Source: a virus
DNA: 24,250 nucleotides
Strand: one strand, 5' to 3'
IMG/VR virus record: IMGVR_UViG_3300037225_000135
Span: 1 to 24,250 of that record
Below the pieces are notes generated by a model that did not search any database, was not told the origin of the DNA, and saw only the letters and a program-made list of their open reading frames with translations. The position numbers were made by a program, and so were the translations under genes. This document shows positions 26 to 23,227 of the stretch, piece after piece (the stretch's first letter is position 1; each line of letters opens with the position of its first letter).

Positions 26-880
26 TTATATCCCTAATTTATTCGTATAATTCTCTTTTGCTAAGAGGTCCGTACTTTCTCCTAATGTCTTTTCACTTAA
101 ATGAACATATGGTAATGTGCTTTTCAAGCTCCCGTGACCCATCCACTGCTGAACCTTGAATACGTTTTGACCGCTCGTTATTTGACATGTTGCATAGCTG
201 TGTCTTAACATATGGGGATGAACGTTTTCCCCTTTTCGGTGCCCTGCTTGCGCTACCACGTTTTCAAGAGACTTTTTACTGATATGACCTATTCCTCCCT
301 GCCCCTTAAAAACAAATTCTTCCGGCTTCATGCTTTTTGTGAATTCTCCAAGTTGTTGCCGCAAAGATTCGGGAACAGGAACGTATCTTTCTCGCCCGCC
401 TTTTGTGTGGTCGAGTCGCAATCTCCAAGGAATGCTAGTTGTGATGATATTATCCCGCCTCAAATAGGCCACTTCCGATAAACGCAATCCACACCCAAAC
501 ATAAGGGACATTTCAATTCGGTGCTTTATGTTATTCGTCGCTTCAATCATCCCTTGTATTGTTTCTCTGTCAATTATTTTGGGCAATGTCTTTGGCTGTC
601 TTTTTCTAGGAACATCACGCACTGTTAGATTTATACCCAACACCATTTCAAAAAACTTAACTACTGCCGCCCTGTGCAAGTTTATACTTTTAGGGGCATA
701 GTTTTCGAGCGTTCCAACCATGTAGTTTTGTAAAAGTGTTTCCGGTTTATCCTTTTTCCCTTTGCAAAAATCCAAAAACCTTCTTACTGCCGGAACATAA
801 TTCCTTACCGTGTCGTTACTGTTTGTTTCACAGCGCAATTTCAATTCAAACTGTTTCAGGTATTCTTCTCGTTTTTCCAT
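26..880 (-). CDS. int: Tyrosine recombinase (phage integrase, XerC/D-like)
   Basis: 284 aa. It is expected to catalyse site-specific recombination between phage and host attachment sites. The N-terminal half (about 1-90) resembles a SAM-like core-binding domain, and the C-terminal half carries the full catalytic set: R133 (in GCGLRLSEV), K160 (HTKGGRERYVP), H223 and R226 (HMLRHSYAT), H249 (MGHGS) and the nucleophile Y258 (YVHLS). The frame is open further upstream to an ATG at 919, but that stretch is the promoter (TTGACA 916-911, TATATT 893-888), so I start at ATG 880. The predicted transcription start is 881 or 880, so the mRNA would be leaderless; no Shine-Dalgarno sequence is present. It is the last gene of the minus-strand series. 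An att site could lie just left of the window, but I cannot identify one. Family call certain; start likely. Confidence 0.96.
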   Translation of the reverse strand: MEKREEYLKQFELKLRCETNSNDTVRNYVPAVRRFLDFCKGKKDKPETLLQNYMVGTLENYAPKSINLHRAAVVKFFEMVLGINLTVRDVPRKRQPKTLPKIIDRETIQGMIEATNNIKHRIEMSLMFGCGLRLSEVAYLRRDNIITTSIPWRLRLDHTKGGRERYVPVPESLRQQLGEFTKSMKPEEFVFKGQGGIGHISKKSLENVVAQAGHRKGENVHPHMLRHSYATCQITSGQNVFKVQQWMGHGSLKSTLPYVHLSEKTLGESTDLLAKENYTNKLGI

Positions 881-887
881 AGTATCT

Positions 888-929
888 AATATAACGGATT
901 GTTTACTCGCTGTCAACAACTTTGTTACA
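888..929 (-). promoter_or_regulatory. Promoter/operator copy 1 (integrase)
   Basis: Reading the minus strand, TTGACA (916-911), a 17-nt spacer and TATATT (893-888) form a near-consensus sigma70-type promoter. Around the -35 lie GTAACAA, AG and TTGTTGAC, an imperfect palindrome, followed by GTAAACAA in the spacer, a third half-site in inverted orientation. The same 42-bp block recurs at 4187-4228 and 9944-9985. The predicted +1 coincides with the integrase ATG. Confidence 0.85.
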
Positions 930-4185: not shown

Positions 4186-4186
4186 T

Positions 4187-4228
4187 AATATAGCACCTTG
4201 TTTACGTGCTGTCAACAACTTTGTTACA
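4187..4228 (-). promoter_or_regulatory. Promoter/operator copy 2 (helicase operon)
   Basis: TTGACA (4215-4210), a 17-nt spacer, TATATT (4192-4187). It shares the flanking half-sites GTAACAA, TTGTTGAC and GTAAACAA with copies 1 and 3. The predicted start at 4180 gives a 40-nt leader before ATG 4140. The TAA stop of the upstream nuclease gene (4226-4224) lies inside the GTAACAA half-site, so coding and regulatory sequence share bases. Confidence 0.85.
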
Positions 4229-9926: not shown

Positions 9927-9943
9927 GATTACCTCCTGCCTTA

Positions 9944-9985
9944 AATATAACACCTTGTTTACTCGCTGTCAACAACTTTGTTACA
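9944..9985 (-). promoter_or_regulatory. Promoter/operator copy 3 (recombination operon)
   Basis: TTGACA (9972-9967), a 17-nt spacer, TATATT (9949-9944), with the shared GTAACAA, TTGTTGAC and GTAAACAA half-sites. The predicted +1 is 9937, at the first base of AGGAGG. It abuts the terminator that ends the late operon, so it starts a new transcription unit. Confidence 0.85.
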
Positions 9986-10023
9986 AAATAAAAAAGGTCT
10001 ACCATGATGGGTGATAGACCTTT
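9986..10023 (-). terminator. Intrinsic terminator of the late/lysis operon
   Basis: Perfect 9-bp stem on the minus strand, AAAGGTCTA (10023-10015) with TAGACCTTT (10001-9993), 13-nt loop, followed by a T-rich run TTTTATTTT to 9986. It lies 22 nt after the last lysis-region gene and just before promoter copy 3. Confidence 0.9.
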
Positions 10024-10045
10024 CACTTTTCCGCTATGAAAACTA

Positions 10046-10675
10046 CTATTTATGCAATGATCTCCACATTCCTAAAACAATCGCTTTCTGTTGATCTTCT
10101 TTTGTCGTCGGTAATTCTTTTGCAAGACCGCCGCCATAGTTTTTTGATACCGAGAACGTCGCACCAAGGCAAATATTACCGCTCTGATACGAGAACGTCC
10201 AGCCGATACTTCCAAGGTTGCCTATGCCGTAATTACTGGACAGGTTGCTTATCAGATCGTCGGACAACGCGCCCTTGACGGCGTTCAAAAGCTGATTCTC
10301 GGTCATGTTCGCAAACTTGACAGAATCAATATTAGCACAGACCGTACATCCGCCCGTGTTGCAACTACCGGACCATTTCACGGACTTCCACGCCGCGCAA
10401 CTGGCAAGAGTGGATACAAGTATGGCAAGGATAAGCAGAGTAGCCGCCGTTCCACTTCCGGTAGTGGGAGGAGTTGGGCTGTTGGAGCTGCCCATAAACA
10501 GCACCTTAAGAAGATACATACCTCCTGCAAGAAGTCCAGCCACTCCGGCCGTCTGAAGCTGCGTCGAAGTGGGTACTGCGCCTGAAGAAATTGATTGTGT
10601 TACCGCCGTGGTGAACGCTGTCCCAGCCGCAATTATCGCACCGTGAAAGTATACTTTGACCTTTTTCCAATCCAT
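10046..10675 (-). CDS. Holin-like membrane protein with internal lipobox domain
   Basis: 209 aa; GAGGAGG 4 nt before ATG 10675. Two Ala/Gly-rich hydrophobic helices (about 12-30 and 41-61) resemble small class II holins. A Ser/Thr/Pro linker follows, then a third hydrophobic stretch (78-92) ending in the lipobox 'LASC' (C93). The remaining 115 residues are Cys- and Gly-containing and predicted extracytoplasmic. An in-frame ATG (M61, 10495) with AAGGTG upstream could start a separate 149-aa lipoprotein form. It follows the NlpC/P60 gene and ends the operon, consistent with a lysis role (holin or spanin-like). Function inferred from position and topology. Confidence 0.65.
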   Translation of the reverse strand: MDWKKVKVYFHGAIIAAGTAFTTAVTQSISSGAVPTSTQLQTAGVAGLLAGGMYLLKVLFMGSSNSPTPPTTGSGTAATLLILAILVSTLASCAAWKSVKWSGSCNTGGCTVCANIDSVKFANMTENQLLNAVKGALSDDLISNLSSNYGIGNLGSIGWTFSYQSGNICLGATFSVSKNYGGGLAKELPTTKEDQQKAIVLGMWRSLHK

Positions 10676-10687
10676 ACCGCCTCCTCG

Positions 10688-11110
10688 TTAAGTGTTAAAT
10701 GGATCAACTGCATACTGAAAATGACTCTGCCAATACCCTTGCGGTTGTGTCAGTACCGCTGCGCCTTGGACCTTGGCGACATCGTCGTTTATTGTGGTCG
10801 AGTCACCGTGGCACGCTCCAGCCAGAATCATATAGGAATTGTTCCAATGAGCAAGAACCGACATTACATGATTTATATGGTCCTTGTCAGGCCCGTAGAA
10901 ATAGAGACTTCCTGGAGCCGCCTGTGCCGGTAAAATAGCCTGCGCCTGGAAGTCGTGCCACAGTTCCGCCGCGTCCCGCTTTGCAGGCAGTCCGAGGCAG
11001 TAGGATACTAGGCCGCTACAATCTACTACATCCGGCCCCCAAGCACCCCAGCGATAGGGAGCGCCGATCATCGACCGCAACAAAGCAAGGTACTGTTCAC
11101 GAGTGTTCAT
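10688..11110 (-). CDS. NlpC/P60-family cysteine peptidase (putative endolysin)
   Basis: 140 aa. 'GAPYRWGAWGPDVVDCSGLVSY' gives the catalytic cysteine C31; H81 ('DHINHVMSVL') and a later His near 101 ('GACHGDS') complete a plausible Cys-His-polar set. NlpC/P60 enzymes cleave peptide bonds in the peptidoglycan stem, here probably for host lysis. The length is a bare catalytic domain with no wall-binding module and no signal peptide, so release would depend on a holin. GGAGG lies 8 nt before the ATG. It is followed by the holin/lipoprotein-like gene. A virion-associated entry role is an alternative. Confidence 0.88.
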   Translation of the reverse strand: MNTREQYLALLRSMIGAPYRWGAWGPDVVDCSGLVSYCLGLPAKRDAAELWHDFQAQAILPAQAAPGSLYFYGPDKDHINHVMSVLAHWNNSYMILAGACHGDSTTINDDVAKVQGAAVLTQPQGYWQSHFQYAVDPFNT

Positions 11111-11125
11111 CCGCTCTACCTCCTT

Positions 11126-11425
11126 TTATTCCATCGGCCAGCCAAGCATAAGCGTACAATCTGTTCCTGTTTTGTGGACCCCTACAATATTCACGCAAGG
11201 CAAATCTGGGGGAATAGGCACATTTGTGGCAACCCCATCACTCGCGGCTATATCAACGTAAATAACCGTTCCCGTGCATGCTGTAATCATCCGGCACGGG
11301 GTGGATGGAAAGCTTGCGTCTGTGCTGCTAATGTCGATTGTGATAGGCTTCTTTGATCCTACAGGCATGCTGAAACGCCCAAGCCGCTGTAGATTGTTTT
11401 CTGAAACTAAGTTGATTCCGGCCAT
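11126..11425 (-). CDS. Small structural protein, spike-base-like
   Basis: 99 aa; GGAGG 5 nt before ATG 11425. The sequence alternates short strands: 'PITIDISS', 'PCRMITACTGTVIYVDIAA', 'NVPIPPDLPCVNIVGVHKTG'. The layout (position-specific value, 'G-T-V/I', a P-G-like turn, then a threshold T-G-T) recalls small phage proteins annotated as spike base or head/tail decoration proteins. That resemblance is from memory and moderate only. It lies between the surface esterase and the lysin. Confidence 0.6.
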   Translation of the reverse strand: MAGINLVSENNLQRLGRFSMPVGSKKPITIDISSTDASFPSTPCRMITACTGTVIYVDIAASDGVATNVPIPPDLPCVNIVGVHKTGTDCTLMLGWPME

Positions 11426-14510: not shown

Positions 14511-14529
14511 AATCACATCTCCCATATTC
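14507..14529 (-). repeat. Duplicated gene-junction element, copy B
   Basis: Encodes the RIWE end of the 58-aa protein together with ATATGGGAG, the stop TGA and the next ATG (14510). The same layout is found at 14686-14708. The GGGAG in the Trp-Glu codons serves as ribosome site for the following gene. Confidence 0.6.
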
Positions 14530-14689
14530 TGTTGAGGTTGTCGATGTTCACAAAATTTGTCGTTGCTACGTCGTCTATTTTAACCGCAAGCGTCGTGTCA
14601 ATTTTCTTGACTTTGTTAGCCGACATTTCTGCAATGTCAAGCTCCTCCTCTGTCGGCTCTATTGGCGTTCCGTCCAGTAATTTAGGCAT
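14513..14689 (-). CDS. Small acidic protein sharing a C-terminal motif with its neighbour
   Basis: 58 aa from ATG 14689, GGGAG about 8 nt upstream. Starts 'MPKLLDGTPIEPTEEELDIA' and ends 'NIDNLNRIWEM'. The C-terminal DNLxRIWE motif also ends the glycosyltransferase-like protein just upstream. The N-terminal 'LLDGTPIEPTEEE' style occurs in small phage tail-fibre accessory proteins. No function recognised. Confidence 0.65.
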   Translation of the reverse strand: MPKLLDGTPIEPTEEELDIAEMSANKVKKIDTTLAVKIDDVATTNFVNIDNLNRIWEM

Positions 14690-14708
14690 AGTCAATGCTC
14701 CCATATCC
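14686..14708 (-). repeat. Duplicated gene-junction element, copy A
   Basis: Encodes RIWEH plus stop of the glycosyltransferase-like gene, ATATGGGAG and the next ATG (14689). Together with the codons just upstream (DNLxRIWE) it matches copy B, differing mostly at wobble positions. Confidence 0.6.
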
Positions 14709-15210
14709 GTTTAAGGTTATCAAGTTTGTCAAATGTATAGCCTGTGGCCTCGACCGCCTCCCGCACTTCTTCGCACATGCACGACCCGTATTTATTCACC
14801 GGTACCGGGATGTCCATTTTCTGCACCATTTCAACACGGTATATGGCAAAGCCAATGTCAGGGTGTTTTGGCCCTTTCCAGTGCAACGCAACTGCCCCGC
14901 ATTTGTCATGCTCGTCCATGTGTTTTATCAGGTCTGCAATATTGGTTGTCAGTAAATGGTCATTGTCGTTGTCGCTCATACAGGCGTATTTATCAGGTAA
15001 TATCGACATTGCGGTAAAAATCAACCTGCGGCATTCCGCTTCCGATTGCTGGCGCGCAAGTGAGTACGTACGGTGCGTGTTCTCGCTACCACCCTGCGTC
15101 TTAACCTCTATAGGATTACAAGGCACAGTCTGTCGCTTGAGGCTGTCCAGCACACCCTTGTATTGGGAAGCAGAATGATCATGGCGTAGACAGAAAAAAA
15201 CAGGTATCAT
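14692..15210 (-). CDS. Small glycosyltransferase-like protein
   Basis: 172 aa from ATG 15210; the frame open to 15267 overlaps the fibre gene and is rejected. It begins 'IPVFFCLRHDHSASQYKGV', a typical first strand of a GT-A fold, and has a DxD-type motif in 'SDNDNDH' (79-85) preceded by 'LPDKYAC'. The fold is short and lacks a membrane anchor. It may glycosylate fibre proteins or host surface glycans; it sits just after the fibre gene. It ends in DNLKRIWEH, shared with the next small protein. The ribosome site is poor. Assignment is by motif and length, moderate. Confidence 0.6.
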   Translation of the reverse strand: MIPVFFCLRHDHSASQYKGVLDSLKRQTVPCNPIEVKTQGGSENTHRTYSLARQQSEAECRRLIFTAMSILPDKYACMSDNDNDHLLTTNIADLIKHMDEHDKCGAVALHWKGPKHPDIGFAIYRVEMVQKMDIPVPVNKYGSCMCEEVREAVEATGYTFDKLDNLKRIWEH

Positions 15211-15215
15211 ATTGG

Positions 15216-17453
15216 TTAATAATTCCCCAGATCGTACCAATGGCCGGAACTGCCTTTTATCATCCAAAATCCGCCGTTGTGAATTGCTTTTGCGCCTTGA
15301 TAATAGGTGACAACTAATGGTGTTGATCCGTCAACATTGTAAACTGCAACAATTGTTCCTACTGGTAGAGAGCCGTCCGCCGGCGTCCAGGTGTGATCTC
15401 CGCCCAACTCAATGCGCGAGCAGGTGGGAGCTGTCGTGGCGTCGCCCGTCATGGTGATTGTTTGTATATCCGCAATTCCAATGGAGGCGGTGGCGTTTCC
15501 GGCAGTGCCGAGAGTGAGGAGGTTTCCCGGCGCTGTCGTCCCGATGCCGATGGAGCCCGAATAATTAATTGTCATCGCGTCAATCAGTGTTTCGTTTGTA
15601 TTGTTAACTTGAAATTTGAAACCGCTTTGAAATGCGTTACCCGTGTTGCCATTATATAGAACTGTTTTAATTCCGCCGACCAAATCAGGCCCATCCAAAA
15701 ACCTCATAATCTGAAAATCTGATTCAGTGTGAGTCGATTTGGCAATATCTAATATTGACCCAGGACTCGTTGTGCCGATACCGACACTTGTCCCATTATC
15801 GAAAATCAAACTATTTCCAACAACGTTTGCAGCAGTGAATTTTGCCAGGTAATTAGTCGTCCCGGCCACCGCGGCACTGCATTCCGCAGCCGTCAGGGCG
15901 GAGGAGGTCAATTCGCCACTTGCTGAACAATGTAGTATTCCTGTCCCGTATTGAGGAAAATAAATGTTAGGGTAGGCATCACTATAAACAGTAGGGATTT
16001 TAAATATTTCTCCTATATCTGCCGAATGACATCCCCTTGTTGATTTAATGGTAAATGTTCCAGAGCTTCCGAAACCATCATTTTGCACTAAAAACAAATG
16101 ATTGAATGCGCTGTAGTTCATTGCTGTTCCGGACACAGTATACTTTATAAAATTATTGCTATCATAAAACTTGAGTGGAACATCCGCAGGTACTGTAACG
16201 TATGTGCTGCCGTCTGAGGTGAGAGGGGTATCGGCCAGCCCTGTTGCGCCGAACATTGCAAGATGAGTATTGGTTCCTAGGTTTCCTAAGTCTGAATTAA
16301 CAATAGGACTGCTTGATAATGTACCTGAAACATCAAAATGCCCAATCCCCGTAGACATTGCCTGGAAAATCACATCTGACCCTGATTTTCCTATAATTAA
16401 CTTCCCGCCATTTCCCTGAATTAGCAAATTTCTAGGGTCAGACGTTGGGCCATAAGCAGACTGAATCCAACTAAAACTTGTTGATATGTGCGTGTACGTT
16501 CCAATGTTTAAAACCACGCTTGATGTAGCGTTCTGAACAATTAGACCGCTGGTAATATTGCCCGATGTTGTGTAAAATGCATTCGGGACCATAACTGTTA
16601 GAGCGTTATTAATCCTCGAAGCATCAGTAATGTATGCCGTCCCTCCAATGGTAAGAAAGTTTGATGATTCGGACGCTCCGATCCGGGCGGATGCCCCGTT
16701 GTCCCAGAAGAGGCTATCCGCTAAACCGGTTGCTGCGAATTTGGCGAGCTGGTTTTCTGTCCCTATATTTCCGAAATCAGTGTTTAAGATAGCGGAAGAT
16801 GTTAGATTGCCGGAAGAATCAAAATGCCCAATTCCCGCAGATAACGCACTAATTTTAAGCGCTACTCCTGCCGCCATTGTTATTAGAGTTCTGTCAATTA
16901 TAAGTGGCGTTGTTATTAACGAAAAAGGAGAATGCGATTGTGCGTATTTAAAACTGTATGCACTATTATACGATGTAAAATTAAATGAACTGCCCGGAGT
17001 TACAGTTATGTCGCTTTCGTGATTGGTTGTTGAAATTGGATAAGCAGAAGCCCAAAAAATTCCCTGTCCGCTATATCCTAATATTCCACCTGTCATTTCG
17101 ATACTACCAGCAATCTCCAATAATCCACGATGATGCAGAGTTGTCGTCCCTATCCCGGTGTATACCCCATCTGTCCACAACGGAGAATTTTCCCACGAAT
17201 GATCCGTATTTGCATACGGAAGGTAGGTAGGTGTCACGCCGTGGAGGTAGGGCGCGTAATTGCTGTCATCATCTCCGCTTGCGACTAATTTAAGCTGATT
17301 ATTTATGCCAGCTACACTTCCGAAAAGTTGATCGTGGCTAGACTGTAACTTGTTTAAAAGCAAGTACGCGTCATCCATGCTTCCCTTAAGCTGCTTTACT
17401 GCAAGCTTTGGGTCTGTAGCATCTGTGTATCGTGGTTGGTGCTGCGTTGTCAT
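15216..17453 (-). CDS. Tail-fibre-like protein with internal repeats
   Basis: 745 aa. An N-terminal coiled-coil-like segment (about 15-60, 'LAVKQLKGSMDDAYLLLNKL') is followed by beta-rich Gly/Ser/Thr repeats typical of trimeric fibre shafts. A roughly 47-residue module occurs three times ('GIGHFDSSGNLTSSAILNTD', and the related 'GIGHFDVSGTLSSS' and 'GILHCSASGELTSSAL') near 207, 369 and 505, followed by 'NGTSVGIGTTSPGS' type units. The C-terminus (about 660-745) is a compact beta domain ending 'GHWYDLGNY', possibly receptor-binding. No chaperone (S74) domain is seen. Start overlaps the previous stop (ATGA). Confidence 0.8.
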   Translation of the reverse strand: MTTQHQPRYTDATDPKLAVKQLKGSMDDAYLLLNKLQSSHDQLFGSVAGINNQLKLVASGDDDSNYAPYLHGVTPTYLPYANTDHSWENSPLWTDGVYTGIGTTTLHHRGLLEIAGSIEMTGGILGYSGQGIFWASAYPISTTNHESDITVTPGSSFNFTSYNSAYSFKYAQSHSPFSLITTPLIIDRTLITMAAGVALKISALSAGIGHFDSSGNLTSSAILNTDFGNIGTENQLAKFAATGLADSLFWDNGASARIGASESSNFLTIGGTAYITDASRINNALTVMVPNAFYTTSGNITSGLIVQNATSSVVLNIGTYTHISTSFSWIQSAYGPTSDPRNLLIQGNGGKLIIGKSGSDVIFQAMSTGIGHFDVSGTLSSSPIVNSDLGNLGTNTHLAMFGATGLADTPLTSDGSTYVTVPADVPLKFYDSNNFIKYTVSGTAMNYSAFNHLFLVQNDGFGSSGTFTIKSTRGCHSADIGEIFKIPTVYSDAYPNIYFPQYGTGILHCSASGELTSSALTAAECSAAVAGTTNYLAKFTAANVVGNSLIFDNGTSVGIGTTSPGSILDIAKSTHTESDFQIMRFLDGPDLVGGIKTVLYNGNTGNAFQSGFKFQVNNTNETLIDAMTINYSGSIGIGTTAPGNLLTLGTAGNATASIGIADIQTITMTGDATTAPTCSRIELGGDHTWTPADGSLPVGTIVAVYNVDGSTPLVVTYYQGAKAIHNGGFWMIKGSSGHWYDLGNY
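15774..16835 (-). repeat. Triplicated ~47-residue module in the fibre gene
   Basis: Copies at about residues 207-253 (16835-16695), 369-415 (16349-16209) and 505-560 (15941-15774). The third is the most divergent. The pattern is 'GIGHFD.SG.L(T/S)SS', then 'N(L/I)GT..(Q/H)LA.F.ATGLAD'. Between the copies are unrelated insertions of about 115 and 90 residues, so this looks like an expanded modular fibre. Confidence 0.7.
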
Positions 17454-21484: not shown

Positions 21485-23227
21485 TTAATCCTTGCAAAGG
21501 AAGTTTTCGAATCCCCAAATATTCTTTTTGTTAGGCTTCAAGTCCGTTCTTTCTGGAAACCATACCGTTTTATCCTTCACGGGTGTCCACTCAAATTCTT
21601 TTGAAATAAATGTCCCCAAATAGGGCTTCGCTATTTCCAGAATGTAGTCAGTGTCAAGATCCTCGGGTCTACATACTCCCATGTCGGGATTTTCAATTGC
21701 CCACATAATAGCCGCTATCAAACCAATAGCCACTTGCGGGGTCGTGCAATTTTGCAGCGGTGCAAGTGTTCTTGCGTCCTCAATATTAAGTATCGTTCCA
21801 CACCAAAAAATGTGAGTATTATCGTATCCACCAATCATAACCCCAAGCGCGTCGCTTCCCGAAACAATTTCATTTTCGTACATGATCCTTTGCCTCGGAA
21901 GTGTTTTATAGTCGTTGCTCCTTACTTCTTGTAAAGAAGCCACTGTCGCGTCACTTGGCTGATAGCAATAGTATACTGTTGGTCGATACTTTCCATCTTT
22001 CGTTGTGAGATAATGACTCATGGTGTATGCCTCCCCATGGCGAATGAGTACGCCCATGATCTGATAGCCATTTTCGGAGCTGCTTATGCTTGCCATTTTT
22101 TCGCTGACTTCATCGTTCTTTTCTTCGATCTCTTTTTCCGTTATCTCAGGTTCAACCTTCGGATCATGCGGGACAAATCCCATAACCCCTACATCGCATC
22201 CCATTATCGAAAGAAAAATCTGATTCTTTGGGCCTTTGTGCGGCACTGTGGCGTGTTCTGGTAGTTCTGTCTCGTGCGTTCCCCATCCAAGCTCTGCGGG
22301 GCTTGTGCCTTCTTCCATGAGGCCTAAAACGCTCCACGTTCCAACGAATTCTCCTGGCTGTCTCGGGCAGTTGCTTATCTGTGTATCTCGCTCAGTGTCC
22401 AGCACAACCCTTACTCCAAGGTCTCGCGCAAGCTCAGAATACCCTTCACTGTCTTCTGATTTCAATTTTTCACCACGCTTCTTTGCTAGGTCTTTTAGTC
22501 CTTGCTTCATGAAGTGGCTTATAAGTCCCGGATTCGCCCCGTGGTCAAGTATGGCCGTGGTTCCGTTGTTGTCGCCCCATTTAGCCATAAGCTCGTCAAG
22601 TTCCTGTTGCCGGGCGTAAAGGCTCTTGTCGTAAGGCGTGCGTTTGTCAAAGCCGTCCGTGTAGTCCCATTCCTCTACCGAAGTGTTCACGTAGAGTATC
22701 TTGTTGTCCCGGCAATATTGGAGAAGTTCCCGGCAATCAATGTCGTATGCAAGATCAATAAGCAAGTCGCCTTCTTCAAGGAATTCTTCCATTGTCTCTT
22801 CAAAGTTTTCTTCTACTATTCGGCGCTGTACAAAAGTAACTCCCTCGTTGATCCAATTTTCAAGCACATCGGACTTATCCAACATGTCGATAATGGTAAT
22901 CTGTTCAATCTCTATTTCAAGGTGCCGTAAGAGGATTGGAAGTACACACTCTGCCACACTACCAAATCCGAAAAAAACAATCTTATTATCGAAAGGAATC
23001 GTTCGCTTTGCCACTGGTGCCGGTTTCGCGGGTAGCTGCGGTTCTTCTTCACCGATCTGGCCGTTAGGAACAAGATTCACATCCTCATTGGATTGGTTTG
23101 GGCTTACACTTTCATCCTGCTTGCTCTCAGGTTCTTTTTCCTTAAGCTGTCCAGTAAGAAAGCCTATCAATTCGTCCGTTTTTGACTTTTTGTCGCCCCT
23201 TATTTTTTCAACCAATTCTTTGTCCAT
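21485..23227 (-). CDS. hss: Homospermidine synthase
   Basis: 580 aa. Makes homospermidine from putrescine (or putrescine plus spermidine) using NAD. Motifs: Rossmann 'IVFFGFGSVAECVLPILLRH' (83-102), 'DHGANPGLISHFMKQGL' (228-244), 'GTWSVLGLMEEGTSPAELGW' (296-315) and 'GTHE' (316-319), then 'WAIENPDMGV'. W298 matches the active-site Trp of the Blastochloris viridis enzyme (about 475 aa) as I recall it. Extras: an N-terminal Glu/Lys-rich extension (1-79), a Lys/Glu-rich insertion (about 355-385) and a C-terminal tail (551-580). It sits among virion genes, one base after a small basic protein and 3 nt before the large tail gene. No polyamine transporter or decarboxylase is near, so it would use host putrescine. 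Family certain; biological use inferred. Confidence 0.96.
   Translation of the reverse strand: MDKELVEKIRGDKKSKTDELIGFLTGQLKEKEPESKQDESVSPNQSNEDVNLVPNGQIGEEEPQLPAKPAPVAKRTIPFDNKIVFFGFGSVAECVLPILLRHLEIEIEQITIIDMLDKSDVLENWINEGVTFVQRRIVEENFEETMEEFLEEGDLLIDLAYDIDCRELLQYCRDNKILYVNTSVEEWDYTDGFDKRTPYDKSLYARQQELDELMAKWGDNNGTTAILDHGANPGLISHFMKQGLKDLAKKRGEKLKSEDSEGYSELARDLGVRVVLDTERDTQISNCPRQPGEFVGTWSVLGLMEEGTSPAELGWGTHETELPEHATVPHKGPKNQIFLSIMGCDVGVMGFVPHDPKVEPEITEKEIEEKNDEVSEKMASISSSENGYQIMGVLIRHGEAYTMSHYLTTKDGKYRPTVYYCYQPSDATVASLQEVRSNDYKTLPRQRIMYENEIVSGSDALGVMIGGYDNTHIFWCGTILNIEDARTLAPLQNCTTPQVAIGLIAAIMWAIENPDMGVCRPEDLDTDYILEIAKPYLGTFISKEFEWTPVKDKTVWFPERTDLKPNKKNIWGFENFLCKD

Follow-up and report, generated by a model that had tools for sequence, protein, structure and literature searches.

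The 24,250-base virus record from IMG/VR that was analysed here (the window) carries a gene, hss, whose predicted product is a homospermidine synthase (HSS). The enzyme very probably works and is made late in infection, and the constant placement of its gene among virion genes in related phages suggests that HSS, or its product, travels with the particle or helps to build it.

Identity and active site of the phage enzyme

The hss ORF is complete, with an ATG start, and its assignment was confirmed by domain, structure and motif matches. An NAD-binding Rossmann domain and an HSS-like C-terminal domain were both detected, by Pfam (Sacchrp_dh_NADP, PF03435, 1e-22; Sacchrp_dh_C, PF16653, 1e-18) and by fold search. 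The only significant PDB matches (phmmer) were homospermidine synthases, the best being the Legionella enzyme (2ph5, E = 2.3e-93), and the AlphaFold model (mean pLDDT 90) aligned with HSS crystal structures at TM-scores of 0.92–0.94 (target length; fold search). In the fold search, HSS structures scored E ~1e-46 while carboxyspermidine dehydrogenase came far behind (4e-13); neither carboxy(nor)spermidine dehydrogenase nor lysine dehydrogenase is as close to the protein as HSS. No HSS family match was returned from PHROGs or NCBIfam. An earlier, sequence-only reading of the window had described a full-length HSS with NAD-binding, GANPG, WSVLG and AELGWGTHE motifs, and all of these were recovered, with the Rossmann G-x-G at residues 87–89 and the other three at 230–234, 298–302 and 311–319, respectively. 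From its identity, the enzyme is predicted to carry out the NAD-dependent conversion of two putrescine molecules to homospermidine.

Catalytic residues were mapped through the P. aeruginosa HSS, for which the published N131, E206, W225 and E233 land on the correct letters with a single offset; numbering and roles in the P. aeruginosa and B. viridis enzymes, including the ionic slide E117, were taken from PMC8489232. Each catalytic residue examined is present in the window protein: E185, N232, E279, W298, E306, H397 and E399 are equivalent to E117, N162, E210, W229, E237, H296 and E298 of B. viridis. The N/E/W/E/H/E set is kept in all 75 near-full-length phage HSS, and the position of E185 is the sole variable catalytic site (Q in 4 of the 75). 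Judged by sequence, the active site is intact.

Table 1. Features of the hss region of the window
Feature	Position	Strand	Basis or remarks
hss, homospermidine synthase (HSS), 580 aa	21485..23227	-	ORF list, Pfam, phmmer vs PDB, fold search, residue mapping
N-terminal extension of HSS, residues 1–80	22988..23227	-	alignment, extension HMM, AlphaFold model
Catalytic residues E185, N232, E279, W298, E306, H397, E399	22031..22675	-	alignment/residue mapping
Clade-specific insert, residues ~354–390	22058..22168	-	alignment
Lys/Arg-rich small protein, 77 aa	23229..23462	-	directly upstream of hss; homologue upstream of hss in L004/L005
Lys-rich small protein, 66 aa	23462..23662	-	weak phrog_1375
C-terminal end of larger protein, 138 aa	23832..24250	-	cut by window edge; 68% identity to 1569-aa protein of L004/L005
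Tail-like protein, 1343 aa	17450..21481	-	homologue directly downstream of hss in L004/L005
Fibre-like protein, 745 aa	15216..17453	-	same operon, 4-nt overlap; homologue of downstream gene in L004/L005

Genomic setting in the window

The hss gene stands among phage genes, the window also encoding an integrase, ERF, DnaB and an NlpC/P60-like protein, and in relatives it is surrounded by terL, portal and head genes. It had been placed by the sequence-only reading between small basic proteins and tail genes, and this holds: the Lys-rich 66-aa and 77-aa proteins are encoded upstream and the tail-like protein downstream (Table 1). The operon is tight, with a 1-nt overlap of the two small genes, 1 nt between the 77-aa gene and hss, and 3 nt between hss and the tail-like gene. 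The truncated protein at the window edge is, by its position, a probable internal/ejection virion protein.

Three near-identical intergenic repeats of ~50 nt, at 887–920, 4186–4219 and 9943–9976 (-), each carry a sigma-70-like promoter (TTGACA, 17 nt, TATATT) and precede early-type gene segments; shuffled sequences are expected to contain none. The repeats are confined to the half of the window that holds the integrase, helicase and recombination genes. A search of the window against Rfam gave no matches. DnaB and the sigma-70-like promoters suggest bacterial hosts, and a tyrosine recombinase (26–919, minus strand; nearest models archaeal XerA and integron-integrase) suggests a temperate or dimer-resolving phage.

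Several other features of the window were recorded. The tail-like protein below hss has 1343 aa in the window and 2067 aa in the related contig L004 (11772–17972), and the extra region of the latter resembles repeated SxDxxTW (BNR/YCF48-like) units. A SASA-type esterase (PF03629; 11438–13588, minus strand) has a Gly-rich, hydrophobic C terminus ending in RRKPPTS that resembles a cell-surface sorting signal, which is unusual for a phage protein. Two adjacent small proteins (14513–14704 and 14692–15267, minus strand) have near-identical C-terminal motifs, DNLNRIWEM and DNLKRIWEH.

Relatives, phylogeny and selection

Alignment-based scans of IMG/VR found close HSS (56–66% identity) in 12 further contigs (L003–L010, L149–L152), and a second, larger group of phage HSS at ~32–37% identity. 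A single-protein pattern scan with the window HSS gave no viral relatives, its patterns being too specific where the alignment scans succeeded. All relatives are metagenomic contigs, some of them short, and absences of relatives weigh little because relatives were located by pattern scans.

Maximum-likelihood analysis of 90 proteins placed the 12 distinct window-type sequences (from 13 contigs, including the window) in one phage-only clade with an SH-aLRT support of 100 and a long stem, so that the absence of a phage clade, which the sequence-only reading had named as a finding that would weaken a stable phage role, does not apply. The clade sits within cellular HSS of methanogens/archaea, Omnitrophota and Verrucomicrobiota, and the nearest cellular proteins among the matches listed in GTDB are those of Methanoregula and Omnitrophota (44–47% identity). 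A separate phage clade contains L153 (putative phiRSL1) and T4-like sequences, with Motura and others elsewhere in the tree. No close integrated copy was seen among the 588 GTDB stretches listed, the best having 47% identity. In the two pairs with measurable dS, dN/dS was 0.040 and 0.047; dS was otherwise saturated. These values and the stable phage clade indicate that window-type hss is under strong purifying selection and is an old, maintained phage enzyme.

Nine records of the clade, several of which are incomplete, were searched for glutathionylspermidine synthetase (GSP_synth), Orn/Arg decarboxylase (ODC/ADC) and AdoMet decarboxylase, and none of these was found. Host putrescine is accordingly the probable substrate of the phage HSS.

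Position of hss across the clade

Three types of assembly module surround hss in these phages. In type A genomes (L003, L006, L007, L008, L149, L151 and L152), terL, portal, MuF-like head protein and hss genes occur together, and in all seven contigs hss is beside the portal and MuF genes. The order in L007 and L149 is terL, portal, MuF-like head protein and hss, followed further on by scaffold and major head protein; the upstream order is the same in the shorter contigs L006, L008, L151 and L152, and in L003 hss lies between the portal and head protein genes. Scaffold-like and major head protein genes are found downstream in the longer contigs (L003, L007, L149). Type C genomes (L009, L010, L150) are those of P22-like podoviruses; L009 encodes a P22-type portal (E = 5e-129) and a head-closure protein, and L010 a DNA-ejection protein (phrog_598). 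Here hss follows two genes in the gp20/gp16 position, with a spike gene in between in L009 and L010, where the DNA-ejection protein gene also precedes hss. In type B (the window, L004, L005) the series is a 1569-aa protein, small basic proteins, hss and a giant tail-like protein. Portals of types B and C share phrog_156; type A differs both in its portal (phrog_145) and in its terminase family.

The hss gene is present in each of the six IMG/VR contigs in which the type A portal was found, and in both of those found with the tail protein of the window. Two portal-bearing contigs without hss (G007, G008) are fragments that break off short of where the gene would be expected, and were not counted as losses. 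The gene is inside the head/ejection block, in the case of the window through synteny with L004 and L005, where the putative ejection role of the neighbour follows from position. The 1569-aa and 493-aa neighbours of hss gave no demonstrated family match to known ejection proteins. The late, virion-linked placement that had been proposed from the window extends to the whole clade: in all its members hss lay in the virion block, in unrelated assembly modules. Because this position is conserved, the operon is tight and the promoters occur only in the integrase/helicase/recombination half, late, virion-coupled expression is likely and well supported.

N-terminal extension and insert

The window HSS begins with an extension of ~80 residues that is absent from solved and cellular HSS. 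Residues 1–40 are modelled as low-confidence helices (block means of pLDDT 47–52) and are missing from the L009 and L010 proteins (first ~40 residues). Residues 43–80 form an arm that is conserved in the phage clade (motif SxxxVxxVxNGQxGExEP...APxA); because the model is confident here (block means 83–95), the arm is probably packed onto the body of the enzyme. The dN/dS analysis shows the extension to be likewise conserved. A second, clade-specific element, an insert of ~37 residues that is also missing from solved and cellular HSS, lies shortly before catalytic H397/E399.

The possibility that the extension is a targeting tag shared with other proteins was examined and rejected for the window clade: an HMM of the extension, run against 1,885 ORFs of phage contigs, matched HSS and no other protein. 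The window HSS carries neither a T4-type capsid targeting sequence (CTS) nor a tag common to other phage proteins.

Observations in other phage lineages

Some T4-like HSS begin with short N-terminal motifs (L025, 3688, MKNFIDFLAE; L027, 9962, MKKFKDFLIE; L024, 6394, MKTFKAFRQQLIE), all of which resemble the CTS of T4. Targeting by that signal is governed by its residues 4 and 7, and its processing by residues 8 and 10 (PMC9026906). The common motif does not represent many independent events, because the T4-like sequences are mutually related. In L024, which is related to the T4-like group, hss is flanked by head-tail adaptor and head-closure genes; in most T4-like relatives it is near replication-type genes (gene names assigned by eye).

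In the jumbo phage L013, HSS (9971–11383) starts with MKINAASRLLAS. An N-terminal tag resembling MKLNAAxRLLAS is common to 14 of 335 jumbo-phage ORFs, HSS included, where the background rate of the pattern predicts fewer than one. Most of the tagged proteins (L013; L180/L181/L188, contig G015) are encoded in a cluster close to a head-tail connector gene, and among the 13 others are proteins with likeness to a protein kinase and a Nudix hydrolase and, more weakly, to an acetyltransferase. The tag looks like a virion-targeting signal.

Possible roles of the enzyme

In the explanation that we prefer, the NAD-dependent phage enzyme would convert pairs of host putrescine molecules to homospermidine. 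It would be made late, translationally coupled with virion proteins, and would become particle-associated, its phage-specific N-terminal extension serving to load it together with, or close to, the capsid-internal proteins. Carried into the cell with the DNA, or acting locally during packaging, it would turn putrescine into homospermidine at the very start of infection or at the assembly step. Taken as a whole (a working, late-made, particle-linked enzyme), this account seems to us evenly poised between right and wrong, and particle association, with loading through the extension, is a guess to which we give slightly less than an even chance. Hints in this direction come from the head-gene position of hss in L024, the CTS-like N-termini of T4-like HSS and the jumbo-phage tag. 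A precedent exists in PBCV-1, whose functional HSS is itself virion-associated (PMC7019647). Against it, the extension is not a shared tag, the model packs its conserved half against HSS itself, L009 and L010 do without its first part, most T4-like hss are near replication-type genes, and the ejection role of the neighbours in the window, L004 and L005 is positional. A wider form of the idea would make HSS a recurrent virion-delivered enzyme of unrelated tailed phages (P22-like, MuF-type, T4-like and phiRSL1-like jumbo), each lineage using its own N-terminal extension or head-gene placement for capsid entry and injection, and the host polyamine pool being rewritten before phage gene expression; this is tentative and, in our judgement, rather unlikely.

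The sequence-only reading proposed that the enzyme reshapes the polyamine pool for DNA packing, or lets the phage avoid or replace host spermidine. In a reading along these lines, HSS would act free in the cytoplasm late in infection, and homospermidine would enter the capsid alongside the DNA as its counter-ion or adjust packaging or ejection pressure. Polyamines act generally as DNA counter-ions, such a role has been proposed also for phage JG004 (PMC3120641), and it fits both the late/virion position conserved in three types of assembly module and the failure to find a protein-targeting tag in the window clade. However, in the HSS-encoding PBCV-1, the one virus for which measurements have been made, just ~0.2% of the DNA phosphates are balanced by virion polyamines (PMC7019647), and a counter-ion role would neither explain the replacement of spermidine, an equally good counter-ion, nor give the conserved N-terminal arm a reason; we consider it unlikely. 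A use in host takeover or counter-defence, with the late operon merely a stable insertion point, appears more doubtful still. HSS would then drain putrescine or shift the polyamine pool, biasing host translation towards the phage or blunting polyamine-dependent antiphage states, and the jumbo-phage HSS does occur among tagged kinase-, Nudix- and (weakly) acetyltransferase-like proteins. Homospermidine escapes spermidine N-acetylation (PMC9992855), and polyamines are linked to phage resistance in Pseudomonas in a passage of PMC10879199 that cites de Mattos 2023, but takeover genes do not typically lie in the late block, except where their product is packaged. Strongly disfavoured, and very improbable, is that hss is neutral cargo (a moron), recently acquired from a cell and lacking a stable role. 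Virion operons often hold morons, and the window-type clade is nested in cellular HSS, yet the long phage-only stem, the saturated dS, dN/dS values of ~0.04, the presence of hss in all informative relatives and its conserved position in unrelated modules all speak against this.

The reason for which viruses encode polyamine enzymes has long been debated, and the common view that they serve to neutralise DNA charge did not hold up in numbers in PBCV-1. The small-phage clade, in which HSS is the only recognised polyamine gene, is encoded in the head/ejection module and has a conserved arm, raises the question of whether the enzyme, or only its product, is in the virion; a packaged HSS would add one more to the small number of metabolic enzymes that phage particles deliver.

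Comparison with known systems

The enzyme itself was already known from viruses, functional HSS having been published for phage phiRSL1 and PBCV-1, with homologues in Motura and Imitervirales (PMC9992855). The podovirus/MuF-phage HSS clade, its N-terminal arm and its position in the head module are new, and no prior report of them was found in the open-access literature searched. The window HSS shares its two-domain fold and catalytic residues with the bacterial enzymes of Legionella (2ph5), Pseudomonas (6y87) and Blastochloris (4plp), at 36–39% identity when aligned, but unlike these it is phage-encoded, lies in a virion operon and carries the extension and insert. The cellular HSS of Methanoregula and Omnitrophota have neither arm nor insert.

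PBCV-1 and the Imitervirales likewise have virus-encoded HSS, although they are eukaryotic viruses and their enzymes belong to a different HSS lineage. A complete putrescine pathway is present in PBCV-1, but ODC/ADC were not found in the window-clade records searched. The HSS of phiRSL1 and Motura are, like that of the window, phage-encoded (Motura HSS shows 27.8% identity to it), but both phages have jumbo genomes and represent separate tree lineages. In Motura (L002, 8022–10847) hss is followed by one small gene and then by a gene for glutathionylspermidine synthase, an arrangement described before; the latter gene was not found in the window-clade records searched. Unlike the packaged enzymes of T4, which have a CTS, the window HSS has no such sequence or shared tag. 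Its gene adjoins genes for putative capsid-internal proteins, a likeness to T4 Alt and internal proteins and to gp7, gp20 and gp16 of P22 that is one of functional analogy only.
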